Assembly: GCA_947629955.1 (NCBI GenBank) | Contig: CANRFT010000017.1 | Span: 1-39,892 of the forward strand | Length of the DNA: 39,892 nt | From: an uncultured Oscillospiraceae bacterium | GTDB taxonomy: Bacteria; Bacillota; Clostridia; Oscillospirales; Oscillospiraceae | Direction of reading: 5' to 3' | Shown: one piece after another, positions 2,436 to 17,383 of the stretch | How positions within the stretch are numbered: the first letter of the stretch is position 1 | How the letters are laid out: each line of letters opens with the position of its first letter | Notes under the pieces: generated by a model | What the model was told of the DNA's origin: nothing | Database searches by the model: none | Seen by the model: only the letters and a program-made list of their open reading frames with translations | Program-made: the position numbers and the translations under genes

Positions 2436-2464
2436 TTGTAAAAAAGCGCGGAGTCTGGTAGAAT
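2436..2464 (+). promoter_or_regulatory. Sigma-A promoter of the DUF815-type ATPase gene
   Basis: TTGTAA (2436-2441), a 17-bp spacer, and TAGAAT (2459-2464). The upstream in-frame ATG at 2463 lies inside this -10 box, so it would not be transcribed. This supports the GTG start at 2493. Confidence 0.7.
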
Positions 2465-2492
2465 GTCACTATCGAAAAACGAGGTGATCGCC

Positions 2493-3680
2493 GTGAATTT
2501 CAAAATGCTGCTGTCCGCTCTGCGGGGCGTGAGCGCCTATAAGGATATCCTGGACACCCATGTGATGGAGGCCGCCCTGCGGCTGACCTCCTGCGCCGTG
2601 TACGGGGATGGGCTGGGCGGACTGGACGCCTATACCGATTTGTTTTACCGTCTACACGCCGAGGGCTTCGACGGATTGGGCGCCTGGCTGGACGGCGCCC
2701 TCGCCCGCTCGGAGGGGCCCTATCCCCGGCTGGCGGAGCGGGAGGCCCGGGACCCGGCCCTGGAGCAGGCCGCCCGGCGGGACATCGCCACCTTTGATCT
2801 GCTGGCCAACGTGGACTGTGACAAGTGGATCGCCCGGCTCACCGAGCTGCTGGACAGTGACTACCAGGGAGTCCTCACCGCCCTGCCCCGGTGGCGGGTG
2901 GGCCGCCGCCTGAGTTTTGAGGACTACACCGCCCTCTACCGGAGGGGAGCGGGCATTTTCACCTATCGGGCCTTCGTGTGGGAGGAAGGAGAGCTCATCC
3001 CGGTGCCCCATCCCGACTGCCCCGGCGCGGACGACCTGCTGGGCTACCAGCGCCAGCGGGACCAGGTCATCCGCAACACCCGGCGGCTGCTGGCGGGGCA
3101 GTACGTGAACAACGTGCTGCTCTACGGGGAGAGCGGCACCGGCAAGTCGGCTACGGTGAAGAACCTGCTGACCCTGGACGGCATGGAGGACCTCCGCATC
3201 ATCGAGGCGGACAAGGAGAACCTGGGCGGCCTGCCCGCCCTCATCCGCCAGCTGGAGGGCAGGCCCCAGAAGTTCATCATCTTCATCGATGATCTGACCT
3301 TCGACCGGGACGACGCCACCTACTCCGTCCTCAAGACCATTTTGGAGGGCGGGCTGGAGCGCCGGCCCCAAAACGTGGCGGTCTATGCCACCTCCAATCG
3401 CCGCCATCTGGTGCGGCAGACCATCTCCGAGCGGGCGGGGGACGAGATCGACCGGTCCGAGACCATCCAGGAGAAGACCTCCCTGGCCGACCGGTTCGGC
3501 CTGCGGGTGCTGTTCCAGGGGCTCACCAAGCAGGAGTACCTGGACATGGTGGACTATCTGGCCCGCCGCGCCGGGATCGACATGCCCCCGGAGGAGCTCC
3601 ACGAGCGGGCCGTTACATGGGAGCGCCGGGGCGGCTCCAGGACCCCCCGGACGGCAAGGCAGTTCATATTGTCGCTGTAA
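2493..3680 (+). CDS. DUF815-type AAA+ ATPase
   Basis: This is a 395-aa cytoplasmic protein from a GTG start. GAGGTG lies 6 bases upstream, whereas the longer ATG at 2463 falls inside the promoter. The N-terminal half has no motif I recognise. The C-terminal half is an AAA+ module with Walker A GESGTGKS (about 212-219) and Walker B IIFIDD (about 262-267), then a sensor-1-like ATSN. This layout matches the DUF815 family, common in Firmicutes and of unknown role. It is monocistronic, with its own promoter and terminator. The family call is from memory of the sequence pattern. Confidence 0.85.
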   Translation: MNFKMLLSALRGVSAYKDILDTHVMEAALRLTSCAVYGDGLGGLDAYTDLFYRLHAEGFDGLGAWLDGALARSEGPYPRLAEREARDPALEQAARRDIATFDLLANVDCDKWIARLTELLDSDYQGVLTALPRWRVGRRLSFEDYTALYRRGAGIFTYRAFVWEEGELIPVPHPDCPGADDLLGYQRQRDQVIRNTRRLLAGQYVNNVLLYGESGTGKSATVKNLLTLDGMEDLRIIEADKENLGGLPALIRQLEGRPQKFIIFIDDLTFDRDDATYSVLKTILEGGLERRPQNVAVYATSNRRHLVRQTISERAGDEIDRSETIQEKTSLADRFGLRVLFQGLTKQEYLDMVDYLARRAGIDMPPEELHERAVTWERRGGSRTPRTARQFILSL

Positions 3681-5614: not shown

Positions 5615-6247
5615 TTATATCTTTTTGATTGGATGCCGAATAACGGTTTTCCATTTTTCGGGGGCAACCTTTCTCGCATCTGACATATAGATCTCATGGT
5701 GCAATCTTGCAGTCGTTATATCATTCACATATCCGTTTTCAGCCAAATACTCATCCATCAAAGCGACTGTGGCGGGCTCGTCATCAAAAGGCCCCAAGTG
5801 CATGATCTGAACACACAGCCCCTCGTCGATGGTCATAAACTCCGCTGACGAACAATCCAGCTTTTTCTTTTTGGTCGCTGTTTCGACCGCCCATTCAAAA
5901 TCCCTTTTCGTTACGAAATCAGGCAATCGAATGACAGAAATCCAATTGAATGAGGACTTATCTGTATAATTGATACCTCCCTCATGATCTTGCCACCAAA
6001 AGCCCTCAAGAGGCGGTACAACATATTCAAAAAAGCCCTCGATTTTGTAATCTGCTTTATAGCTCATTTTCAAGGTGTACGCAACCGCGTATAACACACT
6101 GATTGCCTGCTGATACGCGCCGCCGGCCTCGTTTGGGTCGCCTTTTCCTCTGACCGCAATATAATTTGCCTCCGGTACGTTTACAATTTCGGGTTTATTC
6201 TTCGGCAAATAATATTCTTTATACTCTCTCTTAAAATCAAAAGCCAT
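5615..6247 (-). CDS. GyrI-like small-molecule-binding protein
   Basis: This 210-aa protein starts at ATG 6247 (MAFDFKREYKEYY), with GGAGG just upstream; the GTG at 6259 sits before that SD. It matches stand-alone GyrI-like/SOUL-fold proteins (PF06445 type), recognisable by the NYIAVRGKG motif near residue 30, FFEYVVPPLEGFWW in the middle and a C-terminal HHEIYMSDARKVAPEKWKTV. Relatives bind or hydrolyse small hydrophobic compounds; some sequester toxins. The gene is visibly AT-richer than everything around it, with codons such as TTT, AAA and ATA, suggesting recent acquisition. It lies 36 bases after the GTPase-nuclease gene with no terminator between. Confidence 0.85.
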   Translation of the reverse strand: MAFDFKREYKEYYLPKNKPEIVNVPEANYIAVRGKGDPNEAGGAYQQAISVLYAVAYTLKMSYKADYKIEGFFEYVVPPLEGFWWQDHEGGINYTDKSSFNWISVIRLPDFVTKRDFEWAVETATKKKKLDCSSAEFMTIDEGLCVQIMHLGPFDDEPATVALMDEYLAENGYVNDITTARLHHEIYMSDARKVAPEKWKTVIRHPIKKI

Positions 6248-6283
6248 AATTACCTCCACAAAATCCCGATTGGTTTCTTCCGC

Positions 6284-8848
6284 TCACTTCCCGCCGATGG
6301 TCCGGCGTATCTCCTCCTCCGTCTGCCTCAGCTCAAACTCCAGCTCGGCGGCGGGCACCCGCACCGCCCCGTGGCCCAGGATGATGAGCTGTTCCAGCCC
6401 GTCGGAGGTGGCCACCCGCACCCGGTGGTCCTTTTTCTCCCTCCCCAGGGCGTAGGTGACCTTCTCGATATACATGTCCGCCGTCTCCGCCTCTTTGGTG
6501 TAGATCACGGACACCTCCCCGTCCCGCTCCACCGAGCCGGGGCTGCCCTTCACCTTGTAGGCGTCGAACACCACGATGACGTTGCACTTCTTCCAGCCCT
6601 GATAGTTTTTCAGCCGGTCCACCAGCCGCTGGCGGGCACCGTCCAAATCGGTCTGGGACAGCTTTCGCAGCTCGTCCCAGGCGTGGATGATGTTGTAGCC
6701 GTCCACCAGCAGGTAGTCCTCCCCGTCCCGGAGCTTCAGGCCCTTCCAGGGCCGCTCTTTTTTGGAGGCGGACAGCTTGGGCGCGGGTCGGAAGGCCCTG
6801 GGCTTTACCGGACCGTACACCTTGGCGAAGATGGCCTCCAGCTCCTTGTCCAGGGCCTGCTGGGACTCGTAGCTCATCCGCCGGGGGGCTGGCGCGGGCT
6901 CGTCCGCGATCTGCCCCGCCTCGGCCCGCCAGCCGGAGTCCAGATGGGCGTGGCCCTTCACCTCGTCCCAGGGCACGTTGTACCCCGCCCCGTGGGCGCA
7001 GAACACCGAGCCGGGCGGATTGGCCAGGTCGGCCTCCGGGTCGTAGCCCATGGAGGCCACCACCTCGTCCTGGTCGTGGCAGGGCCGGTAGCCGTCCACC
7101 GTGCAGGACAGCCGGCCCCGGCCGGCGGTGTAGGCGGCCACTTCCGTCCAGTAGCCGCCGAACTCGGACACGGGCACCGCCCCGGTGAGGACAGCGGTCT
7201 CCCCTGACGATTCCGGCGGGTCCATAGTCCCGCCCATCCGCTGGAGGTCGGTCATGGCCCGGCCCAGGCAGTTCGCCGGCAACTCCAGCCGGAAGGAATA
7301 CCAGGGCTCCAGCAGGACGCTCTGGGCGCACATGAGCCCCTGCCGCACCGCCCGGTAGGTGGCCTGCCGGAAGTCGCCCCCCTCGGTGTGCTTCAAGTGG
7401 GCCCGGCCGGTGAGCAGGGTCAGCTTCATATCGGTGATGGGAGAGCCGGTGAGCACCCCCAGATGGGTCTTTTCGATGAGGTGGGTGAGGATGAGCCGCT
7501 GCCAGTGTCCGCTGAGCACGTCCTCGGGGCAGGCGGTGGCGATCTCCAGCCCCGCGCCCCGCTCCAGGGGCTCCAGCAGCAGATGTACCTCCGCGTAGTG
7601 GCGGAGGGGCTCGAAGTGGCCCACCCCCTCCACCGGGGCGGCGATGGTCTCCAGGTAGATGATGCTCCCCGGCCCGAAGGTGACCTCGGTGCCAAACCGC
7701 TGGGCCATCACCCGGGACAGGATTTCCAACTGGACCTCCCCCATCAGGCGGACGTGGATCTCTCCAAGCTCCTCTTTCCACTCGACGCGCAGTTGGGGGT
7801 CCTCCTCCTCCAGGATGCGGAGCTGGGAGAGCAGGGTGTGGACGTCCATGCCCTCCGGGGGCAGCACCTGCCAGGTGAGCACCGGCTCCAGCTCGGGGCC
7901 CTCCCAATCCTCCTCCGCCCCCAGGCCCTGGCCGGCCCTGGTTTGGGACAGGCCGGTGACGGCGCACACGGTGCCCGCCGGGGCCTCGTCTACGGGGGTA
8001 AATTTGGTACCGGAGTAGAGGCGGATCTGGGTCACCTTCTCCTCCCAGTCCTCCGCTTTCAGCGGTTCCCGAACCCTGAGGGCTCCGCCAGTGACCTTCA
8101 TCCAGGTGAGCCGTTCCCCCTTCTCGTCCCGGGTGATCTTGAACACCCGGGCGGCAAAGTCGGAAGGCCAGTCGGGCTCCAGGGTGAACCGCTCCAGCCC
8201 GTCCAGCAGCCCGTCCACGCCCTCCACCTTCAAAGCGGAGCCGAAGAACACCGGGAACAGTTTTCTTTGGGCGATGAGGGCGGCCAAATCGAAGTCAGAC
8301 AGGGCCCCCGTCTCCAGGTAGCGCTCCATGAGGGCCTCGTCGCAGAGGGCCGCGTGTTCCAGCGCGTCCTCCCAGGGGCCGGAGAAGTCCACGCAGTCGC
8401 CGGACAGCCGCGCCCGAAGCCGCTCCATGAGGGCGTCCTCGTCGGTGTCGGGCTGGTCCATCTTGTTGACAAACAGGAAAGTGGGCACCCCGTGCCGCGC
8501 CAGCAGCCGCCACAGGGTCTCGGTGTGGCCCTGGACGCCGTCGGCGGCGCTCACCAGCAGCACGGCGTAGTCCAGCACTTGAAGCGTCCGCTCCATCTCG
8601 GCGGAGAAGTCCACGTGGCCGGGGGTGTCGACCAACGTCAGCTCCAGCTCCCCCCGCCGCAGGATGGCCTGTTTGGAGAAGATGGTGATGCCCCGCTCCC
8701 GCTCCAGCGCGTCGGTGTCCAGAAAGGCGTCCCCGTGGTCCACCCTTCCCAGTTTCCGCACGCTGCCCGCCCGGTACAGCATGGCCTCGGTGAGGGTGGT
8801 CTTGCCCGAGTCCACATGGGCCAGCATACCCACAGCTAACCGTTTCAT
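6284..8848 (-). CDS. TetM-like translational GTPase fused to a Rae1/YacP-type NYN endoribonuclease domain
   Basis: The 854-aa protein has an EF-G/TetM-like body: G1 AHVDSGKTT (10-18), G2 RGITI (52-56), G3 DTPGH (74-78), G4 NKMD (128-131), a G5-like GSALK, then domains II-V with a TetM-like domain IV. After a linker (about 660-710), residues 712-854 match Bacillus YacP/Rae1 almost throughout: LLVDGYNIIHAW, VVFDAYKVKG, TKEAETADMYIE and VATSDGLEQ. The acidic residues D716, D762, D791 and D816 are present. Rae1 cuts mRNA in the ribosomal A site; TetM-type GTPases bind the same region. The inferred role is a ribosome-recruited RNA cleavage or rescue factor. Annotating it as tetracycline resistance is unsafe. 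SD GAGGAGG precedes the ATG, 24 bases after recG. Confidence 0.9.
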   Translation of the reverse strand: MKRLAVGMLAHVDSGKTTLTEAMLYRAGSVRKLGRVDHGDAFLDTDALERERGITIFSKQAILRRGELELTLVDTPGHVDFSAEMERTLQVLDYAVLLVSAADGVQGHTETLWRLLARHGVPTFLFVNKMDQPDTDEDALMERLRARLSGDCVDFSGPWEDALEHAALCDEALMERYLETGALSDFDLAALIAQRKLFPVFFGSALKVEGVDGLLDGLERFTLEPDWPSDFAARVFKITRDEKGERLTWMKVTGGALRVREPLKAEDWEEKVTQIRLYSGTKFTPVDEAPAGTVCAVTGLSQTRAGQGLGAEEDWEGPELEPVLTWQVLPPEGMDVHTLLSQLRILEEEDPQLRVEWKEELGEIHVRLMGEVQLEILSRVMAQRFGTEVTFGPGSIIYLETIAAPVEGVGHFEPLRHYAEVHLLLEPLERGAGLEIATACPEDVLSGHWQRLILTHLIEKTHLGVLTGSPITDMKLTLLTGRAHLKHTEGGDFRQATYRAVRQGLMCAQSVLLEPWYSFRLELPANCLGRAMTDLQRMGGTMDPPESSGETAVLTGAVPVSEFGGYWTEVAAYTAGRGRLSCTVDGYRPCHDQDEVVASMGYDPEADLANPPGSVFCAHGAGYNVPWDEVKGHAHLDSGWRAEAGQIADEPAPAPRRMSYESQQALDKELEAIFAKVYGPVKPRAFRPAPKLSASKKERPWKGLKLRDGEDYLLVDGYNIIHAWDELRKLSQTDLDGARQRLVDRLKNYQGWKKCNVIVVFDAYKVKGSPGSVERDGEVSVIYTKEAETADMYIEKVTYALGREKKDHRVRVATSDGLEQLIILGHGAVRVPAAELEFELRQTEEEIRRTIGGK

Positions 8849-8872: not shown

Positions 8873-10960
8873 TCAGTTGAACAGCTCCGCGTTCTCCTCA
8901 AACAGGCGCTGAATTTGGGCTTTCAAGGGCTTGTGCTCCGGCCTGGACAGGTCCGGGTCGGCAGCGATGAGCCCGTCGGCGGCCCCCTTGGCCTCCTTCA
9001 GCAGCTCCATGTCCGAGGCGAAGTCGGCCACCTTCAGCTGGGGCAGGCCGTGCTGCCGCTTGCCGAAGAAGTCGCCGGGGCCCCGCAGTCTTAAATCTTC
9101 CTCGGCGATCTGGAACCCGTCGTTGGTGGCGCAGAGGGCTCTCAGCCGCTCCCGGGCGGTGTCGCTCTTGGATGCCGACACCAGCACACAATAGCTCTGG
9201 TGCCGTCCCCGGCCCACCCGGCCCCGGAGTTGGTGGAGCTGGGACAGGCCGAACCGCTCCGCGTTCTCCACCACCATCAGGGAGGCGTTGGGCACGTCCA
9301 CCCCCACCTCGATGACGGTGGTGGACACCAGCACCTGGGTCTTGCCGGACACGAAGTCCGCCATGGCGGCCTCCTTGTCTTTGGGCTTCATCTTGCCGTG
9401 GACCAGGCCCACGGTCAAATCGGGGAGCACCCTCTCCCGCAAGTCCTTTGCGTAGGTGGTGACGGCTTTCATGTCCATGGGCGGGGCGTACAGGTCGTTC
9501 CAGGCGGGCAGGTCCTCCGTCTCCTCCACCGCAGGGCAGACGATGTACACCTGCCGCCCCTCTTTCACCTGCTTGCGGACGAAACCGTACATCCGGGCCC
9601 GCTTGTCCTCCCCCACGGCGAAGGTCTGCACCGGCGTGCGGCCGGGGGGCAGCTCGTCGATGACGGACACGTCCAAATCGCCGTAGATGATGAGCGCCAG
9701 CGTCCTGGGGATGGGGGTGGCGGACATGACCAGCACATGGGGCGGCATTTTTTCCCCCTTCTCAGCCAGCGCCGCCCGCTGGGCCACGCCGAAGCGGTGC
9801 TGCTCGTCGGCCACCACCAGCCCCAGGTCCTTGTAGGCCACTCCCTCGGAGAACAGGGCGTGGGTGCCTACCACCAGGTCGATCTCCCCCTCCGCCAGGG
9901 CGTTCAGCAGGGCCTTTCTGGGCTTCCCCTTCACTGAGCTGGTGAGAAGGGCCACCCGCACCCCGGCCGGGGCCAATAGGGCGTCCAGCGTTTTGGCGTG
10001 CTGCTCGGCCAGCAGCTCGGTGGGGGCCATCAGGGCACACTGGCAGCCGTTTTTTGCCGCCGCCCAGGCCCCGAAGGCGGCCACCGCCGTCTTGCCGGAA
10101 CCCACGTCCCCCTGGACCAGCCGGTTCATCACCCGGCCGGAGGCAAAATCCGCCGCCATGTCCTCCATGGCCCGTTTCTGCGCGCCTGTCGGTGTAAAGG
10201 GCAGGAGCTTTGCGAACTTTTCCGGGTCCGAGGCCAACACACGGCCCACACCCCGCTCCCGGCGCTCCTTCAGCAGGGAGAGGCCGCAGGTGAGCGTGAA
10301 CAGCTCCTCGAACACCAGCCGCCGCCGGGCGATGGCCAGCTCCTCCCAGTTGGGTGGGAAGTGGATATTCTTCCGGGCGTACTGGACCTGGCACAGGGCG
10401 TGGTCCAGCCGCACCTGCTCCGGCAGGAACTCCGGCAGGCCCTCCAGGCAGTCGTCCACCGCCCGCCGGGCGAGGCCGGCGAGCAGATTGTTGGAGATGC
10501 CCGCCGTCAGCGGGTACACCGGCATGATGAGGCCGGTGACCCGACCCGCGCCCTCCTTCTCAAACACCGGGTTGGTCATGGACCGGCCGCGGCCCTGGCG
10601 CTCCGCCGTGCCGTAGAACACATAGGTCTCCCCCGGCTTCAATGCAGTTCGGATGTAGGTCTGGTTGAAGAAGGTGAGGTGCAGCACGCCGAAGCTGTCC
10701 ACCGCCTTCACCTTCACCAGCTCCAGGCCCTTGCGGACGCGGCTCACCGTGGGAGTAGAGGCCACCATGGCCGCCACACAGCAGGGCCGGTCCTCCGGCG
10801 CGTCCCGGAGGTTGAAGCACTCCCGCCGGTCCTCGTACCGCTGGGGCAGATGGTACAGCAGGTCCCCCGCTGTGCGGAGGCCCAGCTTCTCCAGCTTTTT
10901 CGCCCGTGCGGGGCCCACCCCCGGCAGATCGGTCAGCGGGGTCTCCCGTGTCAACGCCAT
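8873..10960 (-). CDS. recG: ATP-dependent DNA helicase RecG
   Basis: The 695-aa protein is full length for RecG, which remodels stalled replication forks and Holliday junctions. The N-terminal wedge region begins with an HhH-like LTDLPGVGPARAKKLEKLGL. The helicase core carries Walker A GDVGSGKT (about 283-290), DEQH (about 384-387), SATPIPRT (motif III) and a C-terminal helicase lobe ending in the QLRGRVGRG motif VI. The ATG has a strong SD (AGGAGGT). The GTPase-nuclease gene follows after 24 bases, so the two are probably cotranscribed. Confidence 0.97.
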   Translation of the reverse strand: MALTRETPLTDLPGVGPARAKKLEKLGLRTAGDLLYHLPQRYEDRRECFNLRDAPEDRPCCVAAMVASTPTVSRVRKGLELVKVKAVDSFGVLHLTFFNQTYIRTALKPGETYVFYGTAERQGRGRSMTNPVFEKEGAGRVTGLIMPVYPLTAGISNNLLAGLARRAVDDCLEGLPEFLPEQVRLDHALCQVQYARKNIHFPPNWEELAIARRRLVFEELFTLTCGLSLLKERRERGVGRVLASDPEKFAKLLPFTPTGAQKRAMEDMAADFASGRVMNRLVQGDVGSGKTAVAAFGAWAAAKNGCQCALMAPTELLAEQHAKTLDALLAPAGVRVALLTSSVKGKPRKALLNALAEGEIDLVVGTHALFSEGVAYKDLGLVVADEQHRFGVAQRAALAEKGEKMPPHVLVMSATPIPRTLALIIYGDLDVSVIDELPPGRTPVQTFAVGEDKRARMYGFVRKQVKEGRQVYIVCPAVEETEDLPAWNDLYAPPMDMKAVTTYAKDLRERVLPDLTVGLVHGKMKPKDKEAAMADFVSGKTQVLVSTTVIEVGVDVPNASLMVVENAERFGLSQLHQLRGRVGRGRHQSYCVLVSASKSDTARERLRALCATNDGFQIAEEDLRLRGPGDFFGKRQHGLPQLKVADFASDMELLKEAKGAADGLIAADPDLSRPEHKPLKAQIQRLFEENAELFN

Positions 10961-15519: not shown

Positions 15520-17178
15520 TCATACTTCCGTGATAACAGGCAGGATCATGGGATTCCGCTTGGTCTTCTTATAGAGGTAGTTGGACAGGTCGCCCTTGAT
15601 GGCGCTCTTGATGGAGGACCAGTCCCGGATGTTGTTGTCCTCGCAGTCGTAGAGAGCGTCCTGGGCCACCTGGCGCAGCTCCTCCATCAGCTCCTCAGAC
15701 TCCTTCACATAGACGAACCCCCGGGTGATGATGTCCGGCCCGGAGATGATCTGGCCATCCTCGGCGGAGATGACGGTGGCCACCACGATCATGCCGTCCT
15801 GGGCCAGGTGCTGGCGGTCCCGGAGGACCACCGCCCCCACGTCGCCCACGCCGTAGCCGTCCACGAACACCCGCCCGGCGGGAACGGTACCGTTGACCTT
15901 GATGGAGCTGCGGCTCACCTCAATGATGTGGCCGATGTCGCTGATAACGATGTTTTTGGGGTCCATGCCCATGTCCCGGGCCAGCTTGGCATGGGTCTTC
16001 AGGTGCCGCTGCTCCCCGTGGACGGGGATGAAGAACCTGGGCCGCACCAGGGCGTGGATGATCTTCAGCTCCTCCTGGCAGGCGTGGCCCGACACGTGGA
16101 GGGGCAGCTCCCGCTCGTTGACCACCTCAGCGTCCCGGCGGTAGAGCTCGTTGACCACGCTGTCCACCGCGTTCTCGTTGCCGGGGATAGCGCTGGCGGA
16201 GATGATGACCCGGTCCCCCGGCTGGATGTCCACCTGCCGGTGGGTGTTGAAGGCCATCCGGGTCAGGGCGGACATGGTCTCCCCCTGGCTGCCGGTGGTG
16301 ATGATGCACACCTTGTCCTTTGGCAGGCTCTTGATCTGGTTGATGTCCACCATGGTACCCGCCGGGGGCGTCATATAGCCCAGCTCGGTGGACACCTTCA
16401 GGGCGTTCTCCATGGACCGGCCGGTGACGGCCACCTTGCGGCCGTACTTGGCGGCCACGTCGATGATCTGCTGGATGCGGTCGATGTTGGAGGAGAAGGT
16501 GGTAACGATGATCCGCTGGTCGCAGCCCCGGAACAGCGCCTCGAAGGAGGCGCCCACGCTCCGCTCGCTCTTGGTGTAGCCGGGCCGCTCCACATTGGTG
16601 GAGTCGCACAGCAGGCACAGGACCCCCTCGTTGCCCAGCTGGCCCAGCCGGGTCAGGTCGATCATGCCGCCCTGGATGGGGGTGGAGTCGATCTTGAAAT
16701 CGCCGGTGTGGACGCATACGCCGATGGGAGTGCGGATGGCGAAGGCCACCGCGTCGGAGATGGAGTGGTTCACGTGGATGAACTCCACGGAGAAGCACCC
16801 CGCCTTGACCACGTCCCCCGCCTCGCAGGTGACGAGCTTGACCTTGTTCTCCAGCCTGTGCTCCTCCAGCTTCAGCTTGATGAGCCCGGCGGACATGCGT
16901 GTGGCGTAGATGGGGGCGTTCACGTCCCGCATGAGATAGGGGATGGCCCCGATGTGGTCCTCGTGTCCGTGGGTGATAAAGATGGCCCGGATACGGTCCC
17001 TGTTCTGGACGAGATATGTGAAATCGGGGATGACCACGTCGATGCCGTACATATCGTTGTCAGGGAAGCCCATGCCCACGTCCACCAGAATGATGTCGTT
17101 CCCGTACTCGTACACAGTGAGGTTCTTGCCGATCTCATTGAGGCCGCCAAGGGAGATGATTTTCAGTTTTTCTGCCAT
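15520..17178 (-). CDS. rnj: Ribonuclease J
   Basis: This 552-aa metallo-beta-lactamase/beta-CASP enzyme performs 5'-to-3' exonucleolytic and endonucleolytic RNA decay and rRNA maturation. Zinc-binding HGHEDH is at 70-75, with further ligands in the HVNHS and HTGDFK segments. The beta-CASP region (SGHACQEEL, PVHGEQRHL) and the RNase J C-terminal domain are intact. The start is ATG 17178, with AAAGGAG upstream; a 32-residue N-terminal extension in the same frame lacks family similarity. The promoter lies about 200 bases away, leaving a long structured leader. Confidence 0.96.
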   Translation of the reverse strand: MAEKLKIISLGGLNEIGKNLTVYEYGNDIILVDVGMGFPDNDMYGIDVVIPDFTYLVQNRDRIRAIFITHGHEDHIGAIPYLMRDVNAPIYATRMSAGLIKLKLEEHRLENKVKLVTCEAGDVVKAGCFSVEFIHVNHSISDAVAFAIRTPIGVCVHTGDFKIDSTPIQGGMIDLTRLGQLGNEGVLCLLCDSTNVERPGYTKSERSVGASFEALFRGCDQRIIVTTFSSNIDRIQQIIDVAAKYGRKVAVTGRSMENALKVSTELGYMTPPAGTMVDINQIKSLPKDKVCIITTGSQGETMSALTRMAFNTHRQVDIQPGDRVIISASAIPGNENAVDSVVNELYRRDAEVVNERELPLHVSGHACQEELKIIHALVRPRFFIPVHGEQRHLKTHAKLARDMGMDPKNIVISDIGHIIEVSRSSIKVNGTVPAGRVFVDGYGVGDVGAVVLRDRQHLAQDGMIVVATVISAEDGQIISGPDIITRGFVYVKESEELMEELRQVAQDALYDCEDNNIRDWSSIKSAIKGDLSNYLYKKTKRNPMILPVITEV

Positions 17179-17383
17179 AATTGCTCCTTTCCAGGTGAAA
17201 ATAGCGGGGTTTTTGCGCAGGACGACACAGCCGGTCCTCATTGCCCGGCTTTTCGTCCTATATGTATGGTACATATCAAAAGCGCACTCTCTGGCGCTTT
17301 ACGCCTCAGCAAACACGCTCGGCCCTTTTCGGGGAGCGGTCCCGGCCATGCCGCGATACAGGGCGGACAGCCGCATTGCGGCT

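Follow-up and report, generated by a model that had tools for sequence, protein, structure and literature searches.

A gene in which a translational GTPase is fused to a nuclease domain of the YacP/Rae1 type was found in a stretch of 39,892 nucleotides from an uncultured Oscillospiraceae bacterium (contig CANRFT010000017.1 of assembly GCA_947629955.1), which as a whole is called the window here. The existence of the fused gene is confirmed. The same domain order was found in 48 fused proteins, each from a different genome and one of them being the window protein, and in 80 of 80 named loci, i.e., the best 80 of 593 relatives ranked by similarity to the window protein. Thus, both chance and an assembly artefact are excluded as the source of the fusion. 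As to its function, we lean slightly towards a GTPase of a subfamily of its own that binds ribosomes and carries a tethered Rae1-type endoribonuclease, which would cut the messenger RNA (mRNA) in the A site and thereby feed rescue by transfer-messenger RNA (tmRNA).

The Rae1-type nuclease domain and its distribution

The window protein contains a GTP_EFTU domain with motifs G1 to G5 (AHVDSGKTT, RGIT, DTPGH, NKMD, and GSALK) followed by EF-G domains II to V, as recognized by Pfam, alignment and structure, which makes it a member of the translational GTPase superfamily. Residues 713–850 match NYN_YacP (PF05991) with an E-value of 1.2e-46 and a score of 159.2 bits, the cut-off being 24.6. Thus, the composition given in the original prediction, i.e., a translational GTPase with all G motifs joined to a C-terminal YacP-type domain, is indeed present in one open reading frame (ORF). 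The structure model of the nuclease domain has the Rae1 fold and, when the comparison with Rae1 that had been proposed was made, structure alignments gave 42–43% identity (PDB 5mq8 and 5mq9, the latter being the W164L mutant). Residues D716, D762, D791, and D816 align with D7, D53, D81, and D104 of Bacillus subtilis Rae1. This acidic centre is invariant in 48 of 48 fused proteins and in all 21 other NYN domains considered, i.e., 20 solo Rae1 proteins and a contig-edge fragment (L148). An alignment of 81 rows shows D716, D762, and D791 in every row and D816 in all but one. A loss of the acidic residues across homologs, which would have spoken against a Rae1-like activity, was therefore not seen.

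The domain had also been described as nearly colinear with YacP/Rae1. This holds for the core and the acidic residues, but the structure alignment ends at Rae1 residue 142, and the C-terminal tail of Rae1 is missing. An LExxRR-like motif in this tail, a feature defined in the present analysis and not a published criterion, is found in 37 of 37 solo Rae1 proteins with a loose pattern and in 30 of 37 with a strict one. The corresponding numbers for fused proteins are 13 and 0 of 150, after removal of 20 duplicates, two open C-termini and the fragment L148; the window protein ends before the position of the motif. By position, R166 of B. subtilis Rae1 falls within the tail, and R166P is among the mutations that were interpreted as abolishing function in the study concerned (PMC6613710). 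Possibly, the GTPase has taken over a targeting function of the tail.

The only YacP domain in the bacterium's own genome is that of the fused protein. Across the order, a YacP match was found in 101 of 295 genomes; the best match lies in a frame of at least 833 amino acids in 95 of these and in a short frame in six, of which L148 (genome G107) is at a contig end, the one in G275 is apparently frameshifted, and others are near contig ends. In a sample of 118 genomes of the class, 79 have a YacP match, 35 of them in solo frames of 168–213 amino acids and 44 in fused form. The fused frames comprise at least 850 amino acids in 41 genomes, 734 in G355 and 789 in G364, whilst that of G337 is split. 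The fused genes of G337, G275, and G355, which lie in two frames or pieces, represent broken genes or assembly errors. All 44 fused genomes also give a GTPase match (48–100% identity), and none of the 118 genomes contains solo and fused YacP together. The fusion apparently stands in for the usual separate Rae1 in its carriers. In a larger sample of 393 genomes, five have more than one YacP match, and the second matches in four of these (G411, G462, G494, and G645) were not recovered with the window protein at an E-value of 1e-9. The distribution of fused forms extends beyond the class, e.g., to G1033, G875, and G1024. Within the scan of the best 80 named loci, they are found in many gut Oscillospiraceae and Lachnospiraceae, with Caproicibacter fermentans (L163), Intestinimonas butyriciproducens, Hydrogenoanaerobacterium saccharovorans, and Mediterraneibacter massiliensis among the named carriers.

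These data could also be explained by a plain Rae1 that has become ribosome-bound, the GTPase being no more than a docking device through which an ordinary mRNA-decay enzyme is locally enriched and which hydrolyses GTP for turnover, without any role in rescue. The unchanged acidic centre, the missing free-Rae1 tail in most fused forms and the mutual exclusion of fused and solo forms among the 118 genomes all fit such a device. However, domain IV keeps conserved charged loops of its own, a hint at active participation in the decoding centre, and GTPase orthologues without a nuclease domain occur in genomes without any YacP. We therefore consider a docking device unlikely.

The GTPase part, its extension and the linker

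Simple patterns detected G1 in 47, G2 in 47, G3 in 48, G4 in 42, and G5 in 45 of the 48 fused proteins. The best NCBIfam match of the window protein is tet_protect, with 407 bits, where the model for tetracycline ribosomal protection proteins (RPPs; NF012153) has a cut-off of 775 bits. The same model gives 395 bits for the fused protein L163 and 414 for the unfused orthologue L130, whilst two RPP-like proteins pass (L140, 819; L138, 1001) and a divergent third one (L137, 561) does not. The tip of domain IV, which in TetM we take to be YSPVS, is different as well: YYSPVSTPADF in L140 corresponds to AHLKHTEGGDF in the window protein, with HLKHT at the place of YSPVS. The motif KHTxGGDF is present in 41 of 48 fused proteins and in all seven unfused orthologues, and the domain IV residues H411, E413, H417, E420, H484, K486, H487, and D492 are each kept in 80 or 81 of 81 proteins. 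The window protein also scores below the cut-off of the EF-G model (TIGR00484; 289.1 versus 659.4 bits), and a separate EF-G-like gene (683-amino-acid frame) is found in its own genome.

Since structure matches to TetM and EF-G cannot rank the GTPase among the subfamilies, a sequence tree was used. In this tree of 61 rows, calculated by a quick method and with a single outgroup, the EF-G-like row, on a very long branch, the 48 fused GTPases lie on one side of a branch with a support of 95 in the Shimodaira-Hasegawa-like approximate likelihood ratio test (SH-aLRT), beside the seven unfused orthologues (support 86), and five RPP-like rows fall outside both groups. On the evidence here, the GTPase appears to form its own subfamily, related to Tet and EF-G, and would not be a tetracycline-protection protein as judged from its sequence. 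The designation TetM-like in the original prediction is loose wording, considering the distance to the RPP cut-off, whilst its warning that a resistance-style label would mislead agrees with both the score and the replaced tip.

Still, tetracycline protection with an added RNase step has to be considered, in which the GTPase displaces the drug and the nuclease somehow assists (Atkinson 2015). The closest named relatives include RPPs, tet_protect is the best NCBIfam match, and such proteins were placed under Tet in the passage concerned (Atkinson 2015, PMC4342817), where tip loops of Tet proteins are said to dislodge the drug. Besides the low score and the replacement of the tip, the position of the 48 fused GTPases on one branch apart from the RPP-like rows argues against this function. 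Moreover, a genome of the same genus (G013) contains a TetM/TetW-type RPP, L140, in addition to the fused gene. Altogether, drug protection seems very unlikely, and the fused proteins should, judged by sequence, be left out when tetracycline resistance genes are counted.

Domain V is followed by a C-terminal extension that the unfused orthologues share and that is missing in the RPP-like rows and in the single EF-G-like row of the alignment. Cysteines and histidines are well kept at this extension (window positions 6929–7081, residues 590–640), i.e., C590 in 80, C617 in 81, H619 in 80, and H635 in 78 of 81 proteins, and might constitute a metal site. The subsequent linker is probably flexible, as the structure model has values below 50 in the predicted local distance difference test (pLDDT) at residues 644–660 and 683–706. 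The distance from W627 to D716 varies from 80 to 131 residues (median 93) in the 81 proteins, and the sequence is variable save for one motif with the consensus DKELxxIFERTYGP, which has the same length in all 81 proteins and matches as a pattern in 71. The part following this motif is basic, with a median net charge of +5. One may speculate that the motif serves for docking.

A long, flexible and mostly variable linker would also be expected if two independent enzymes had been joined for co-expression only. However, the constancy of the 14-residue motif and the retention of the fusion across many families argue against this. Furthermore, the free halves need not be co-expressed, since they are located on different contigs in genome G495. 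We consider joining for co-expression only very unlikely.

Origin of the fusion and gene neighbourhood

The seven unfused GTPase orthologues (L130–L136) consist of 647–655 amino acids. Genomes G397 and G353 contain such an orthologue together with a solo Rae1; G397 has two GTPase paralogues (L134 and L135), and its solo Rae1 is at the canonical locus. In G495, the GTPase (654-amino-acid frame) and the NYN nuclease L117 (173 amino acids) are separate genes. L117 groups near the fused domains, lies outside the rlmB locus and retains a LEKIR tail. Because of this combination, G495 reads more as a pre-fusion state than as the result of fission, which was considered and set aside even though the nuclease tree does not settle the matter; possibly, it is a relic of the state before fusion.

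The comparison of fused and separate forms by phylogeny gave a divided answer. The GTPase tree fits one origin of the fusion. In a quick nuclease tree, 19 solo Rae1 proteins are on one side (support 100), and the fused label requires three changes. A more careful tree, without L090 and L148, requires two changes, and in it a single fused clade is not rejected by the approximately unbiased test (p-AU 0.235) but is not demonstrated either.

The coordinates of the features are listed in Table 1. The original prediction placed the fused gene directly downstream of recG. This is true in the window, but the linkage is not conserved: among the 110 fused loci that include 1 kb or more of sequence upstream, a tblastn search detected an adjoining recG in three only, namely in the window, L154, and L156. 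Therefore, a recG operon was rejected as a functional clue. The commonest neighbouring family within 2.5 kb, an ABC transporter, occurs at 12 of 128 loci. Of 20 loci with a solo Rae1 gene, 18 have it next to rlmB and mrnC; the exceptions are L115, at a contig edge, and L117 of G495. In the neighbourhood of fused genes, searched up to ~6 kb on each side and less at contig ends, rlmB, mrnC, and cysS were detected at none of 128 loci at an E-value of 1e-15 and a sigH-like gene at one (L171). A comparison of proteins revealed one distant rlmB-like match (31%) near the fused gene L199, on the opposite strand. In the bacterium's own genome, no YacP match lies beside the best rlmB match (C2).

Table 1. 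Features of the fused gene and recG in the window
Feature	Position	Strand	Basis
Whole fused gene, 854 amino acids, one uninterrupted ORF	6284..8848	-	ORF list and translation
G domain, residues 4–220 (GTP_EFTU), G1–G5 present	8189..8839	-	Pfam, motifs, alignment
Domain II, residues 231–307 (EF-G_D2)	7928..8158	-	Pfam
Domain III, residues 321–392 (EFG_III)	7673..7888	-	Pfam
Domain IV, residues 395–508 (EFG_IV)	7325..7666	-	Pfam
Domain IV tip loop, residues 481–494 (GRAHLKHTEGGDFR)	7367..7408	-	Alignment; GLYYSPVSTPxDFR at this place in L138 and L140 (TetM-type)
Domain V, residues 511–593 (EFG_C)	7070..7318	-	Pfam
C-terminal extension, residues 594–640	6929..7069	-	Alignments
Linker, residues 641–710	6719..6928	-	Alignment and structure model
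Conserved 14-residue linker motif, residues 667–680	6809..6850	-	Alignment; overlaps predicted helix 660–678
NYN_YacP (Rae1-type) nuclease domain, residues 713–850, with D716, D762, D791, D816	6299..6712	-	Pfam, alignments, structure
recG, same strand, 24 bp upstream of the fused gene	8873..10960	-	Pfam/ORF; linkage in close relatives only

Other genes in the window include one for a GyrI-like small-molecule-binding protein just downstream of the fused gene (5615–6259, minus strand), which was not detected at any further one of the 128 fused loci with an E-value of 1e-15, one for a DUF815 AAA ATPase (2463–3680, plus strand), which also lies close to the fusion in L070 and L154, and one for RNase J (15520–17274, minus strand). 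A role in anti-phage defence was rejected, as no family matched among 5027 PADLOC 2023 models at an E-value of 0.001 in a search that did not extend to the neighbours.

Possible mechanism and comparison with known systems

In the most economical model, the GTPase would locate the ribosome and clear or probe its A site before the tethered nuclease cuts. The GTPase part would bind at the EF-G site of a ribosome with an open or blocked A site. After GTP hydrolysis, domain IV would depart from the A site, and the nuclease, by means of the flexible linker, might enter the vacated site or reach the mRNA beside it. Cleavage would leave a ribosome on a truncated mRNA, a substrate for rescue by tmRNA, which is present in the own genome. 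Ribosome binding, cleavage in the A site, the order of events and the link to rescue are inferred; Rae1 is described as an endonuclease acting on mRNA in the A site (PMC6613710), and A-site cleavage as readying ribosomes for tmRNA. The protein may thus deliver itself to its site of cleavage.

Several observations weigh against this model. Since domain IV and the Rae1-like domain cannot share one A site, the model requires them to dock one after the other. Without the Rae1 tail, the activity of the nuclease could be altered or weaker. Motif G4 deviates from NK[MLVI]D in six of 48 fused proteins (three NKTD/NKSD, one TKMD in L078, and two not resolved) and in three of seven unfused ones. Four of the 118 genomes (G319, G322, G347, and G361) contain an unfused GTPase orthologue and no YacP match, and the GTPase thus has a role without the nuclease. 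YacP is dispensable, since only about a third of the order's genomes have any, and one of the five multi-match genomes (G565) carries both a fused and a free form. Finally, among all ORFs within 2.5 kb at 128 fused loci, there is no conserved neighbour hinting at rescue.

Alternatively, the fused protein may function in the maturation of rRNA or tRNA or in ribosome quality control, the GTPase being an assembly factor. EF-G-like GTPases could act on ribosomal particles. In addition, a general role of this kind was proposed for NYN domains in 2006, as reported in the passage on the fusions (Atkinson 2015, PMC4342817). Such a function is improbable, however, because the activity described for Rae1 is endonucleolytic cleavage of mRNA in the A site, and because the patchy presence (101 of 295 genomes) is unlike that of a core maturation enzyme.

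If the model of a ribosome-bound, tethered nuclease is extended, the fusion may be a one-polypeptide, GTP-driven cutter of mRNA in stalled ribosomes that arose once, replaced free Rae1 in much of Clostridia and shed the tail of its nuclease. This fuller scenario is tentative and somewhat doubtful.

Tet proteins with a YacP-like NYN domain were described in ten Clostridiales species, in one passage that calls such fusions Tet proteins with a possible role in resistance (Atkinson 2015, PMC4342817). Hence, the fusion architecture was already known. Of the proposal of a fused GTPase-nuclease as a ribosome factor, the domains, the acidic centre and the misleading resistance label stand. Its stronger wording is opposed by the publication of the architecture in 2015, by the lack of a conserved link with recG and by the four of 118 genomes in which the GTPase occurs alone. 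A literature search, limited to top-ranked matches and not covering the main Rae1 papers, yielded no functional test of the fusion and no description of the unfused orthologues. Nor did it show a report that these GTPases stand apart from RPPs, that fused and free Rae1 exclude each other, that tail and locus were lost or that split relatives exist, or one that proposes a mechanism based on Rae1. The 2015 account precedes the Rae1 paper of 2017. To our knowledge, it is not settled by which route Rae1 reaches and enters paused ribosomes. Since the Rae1 core is naturally fused here with an EF-G-like GTPase, this question becomes directly testable, and free halves are available in G495, G397, and G353.

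The fused protein can be placed among known systems as follows. It shares five EF-G-type domains and ~30–34% identity with TetM, TetO, and TetW, from which it differs by its score below the curated cut-off, its domain IV tip and the added extension and nuclease. From EF-G, it is separated by a score far below the cut-off and by the distinct EF-G-like gene in the same genome. The unfused orthologues are 42–48% identical over approximately residues 1–635, with the same tip loop and extension, but have no linker and no nuclease. B. subtilis Rae1 has the same NYN core, fold and acidic residues, but is a free protein of ~170 amino acids with a tail. The free Rae1 genes analysed here are in loci of the cysS-mrnC-rlmB-yacP-sigH type and encode the LExxRR-like tail, whereas the fused gene is located elsewhere in the genome. 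The Tet-NYN group has the same architecture and comes from the same group of bacteria as the window protein and, matched by description and not by accession to the passage concerned, is most likely the same family (Atkinson 2015). Under the fuller and somewhat doubtful scenario of a GTP-driven cutter that replaced free Rae1, these proteins would be a one-chain bacterial counterpart of a rescue GTPase and its endonuclease.
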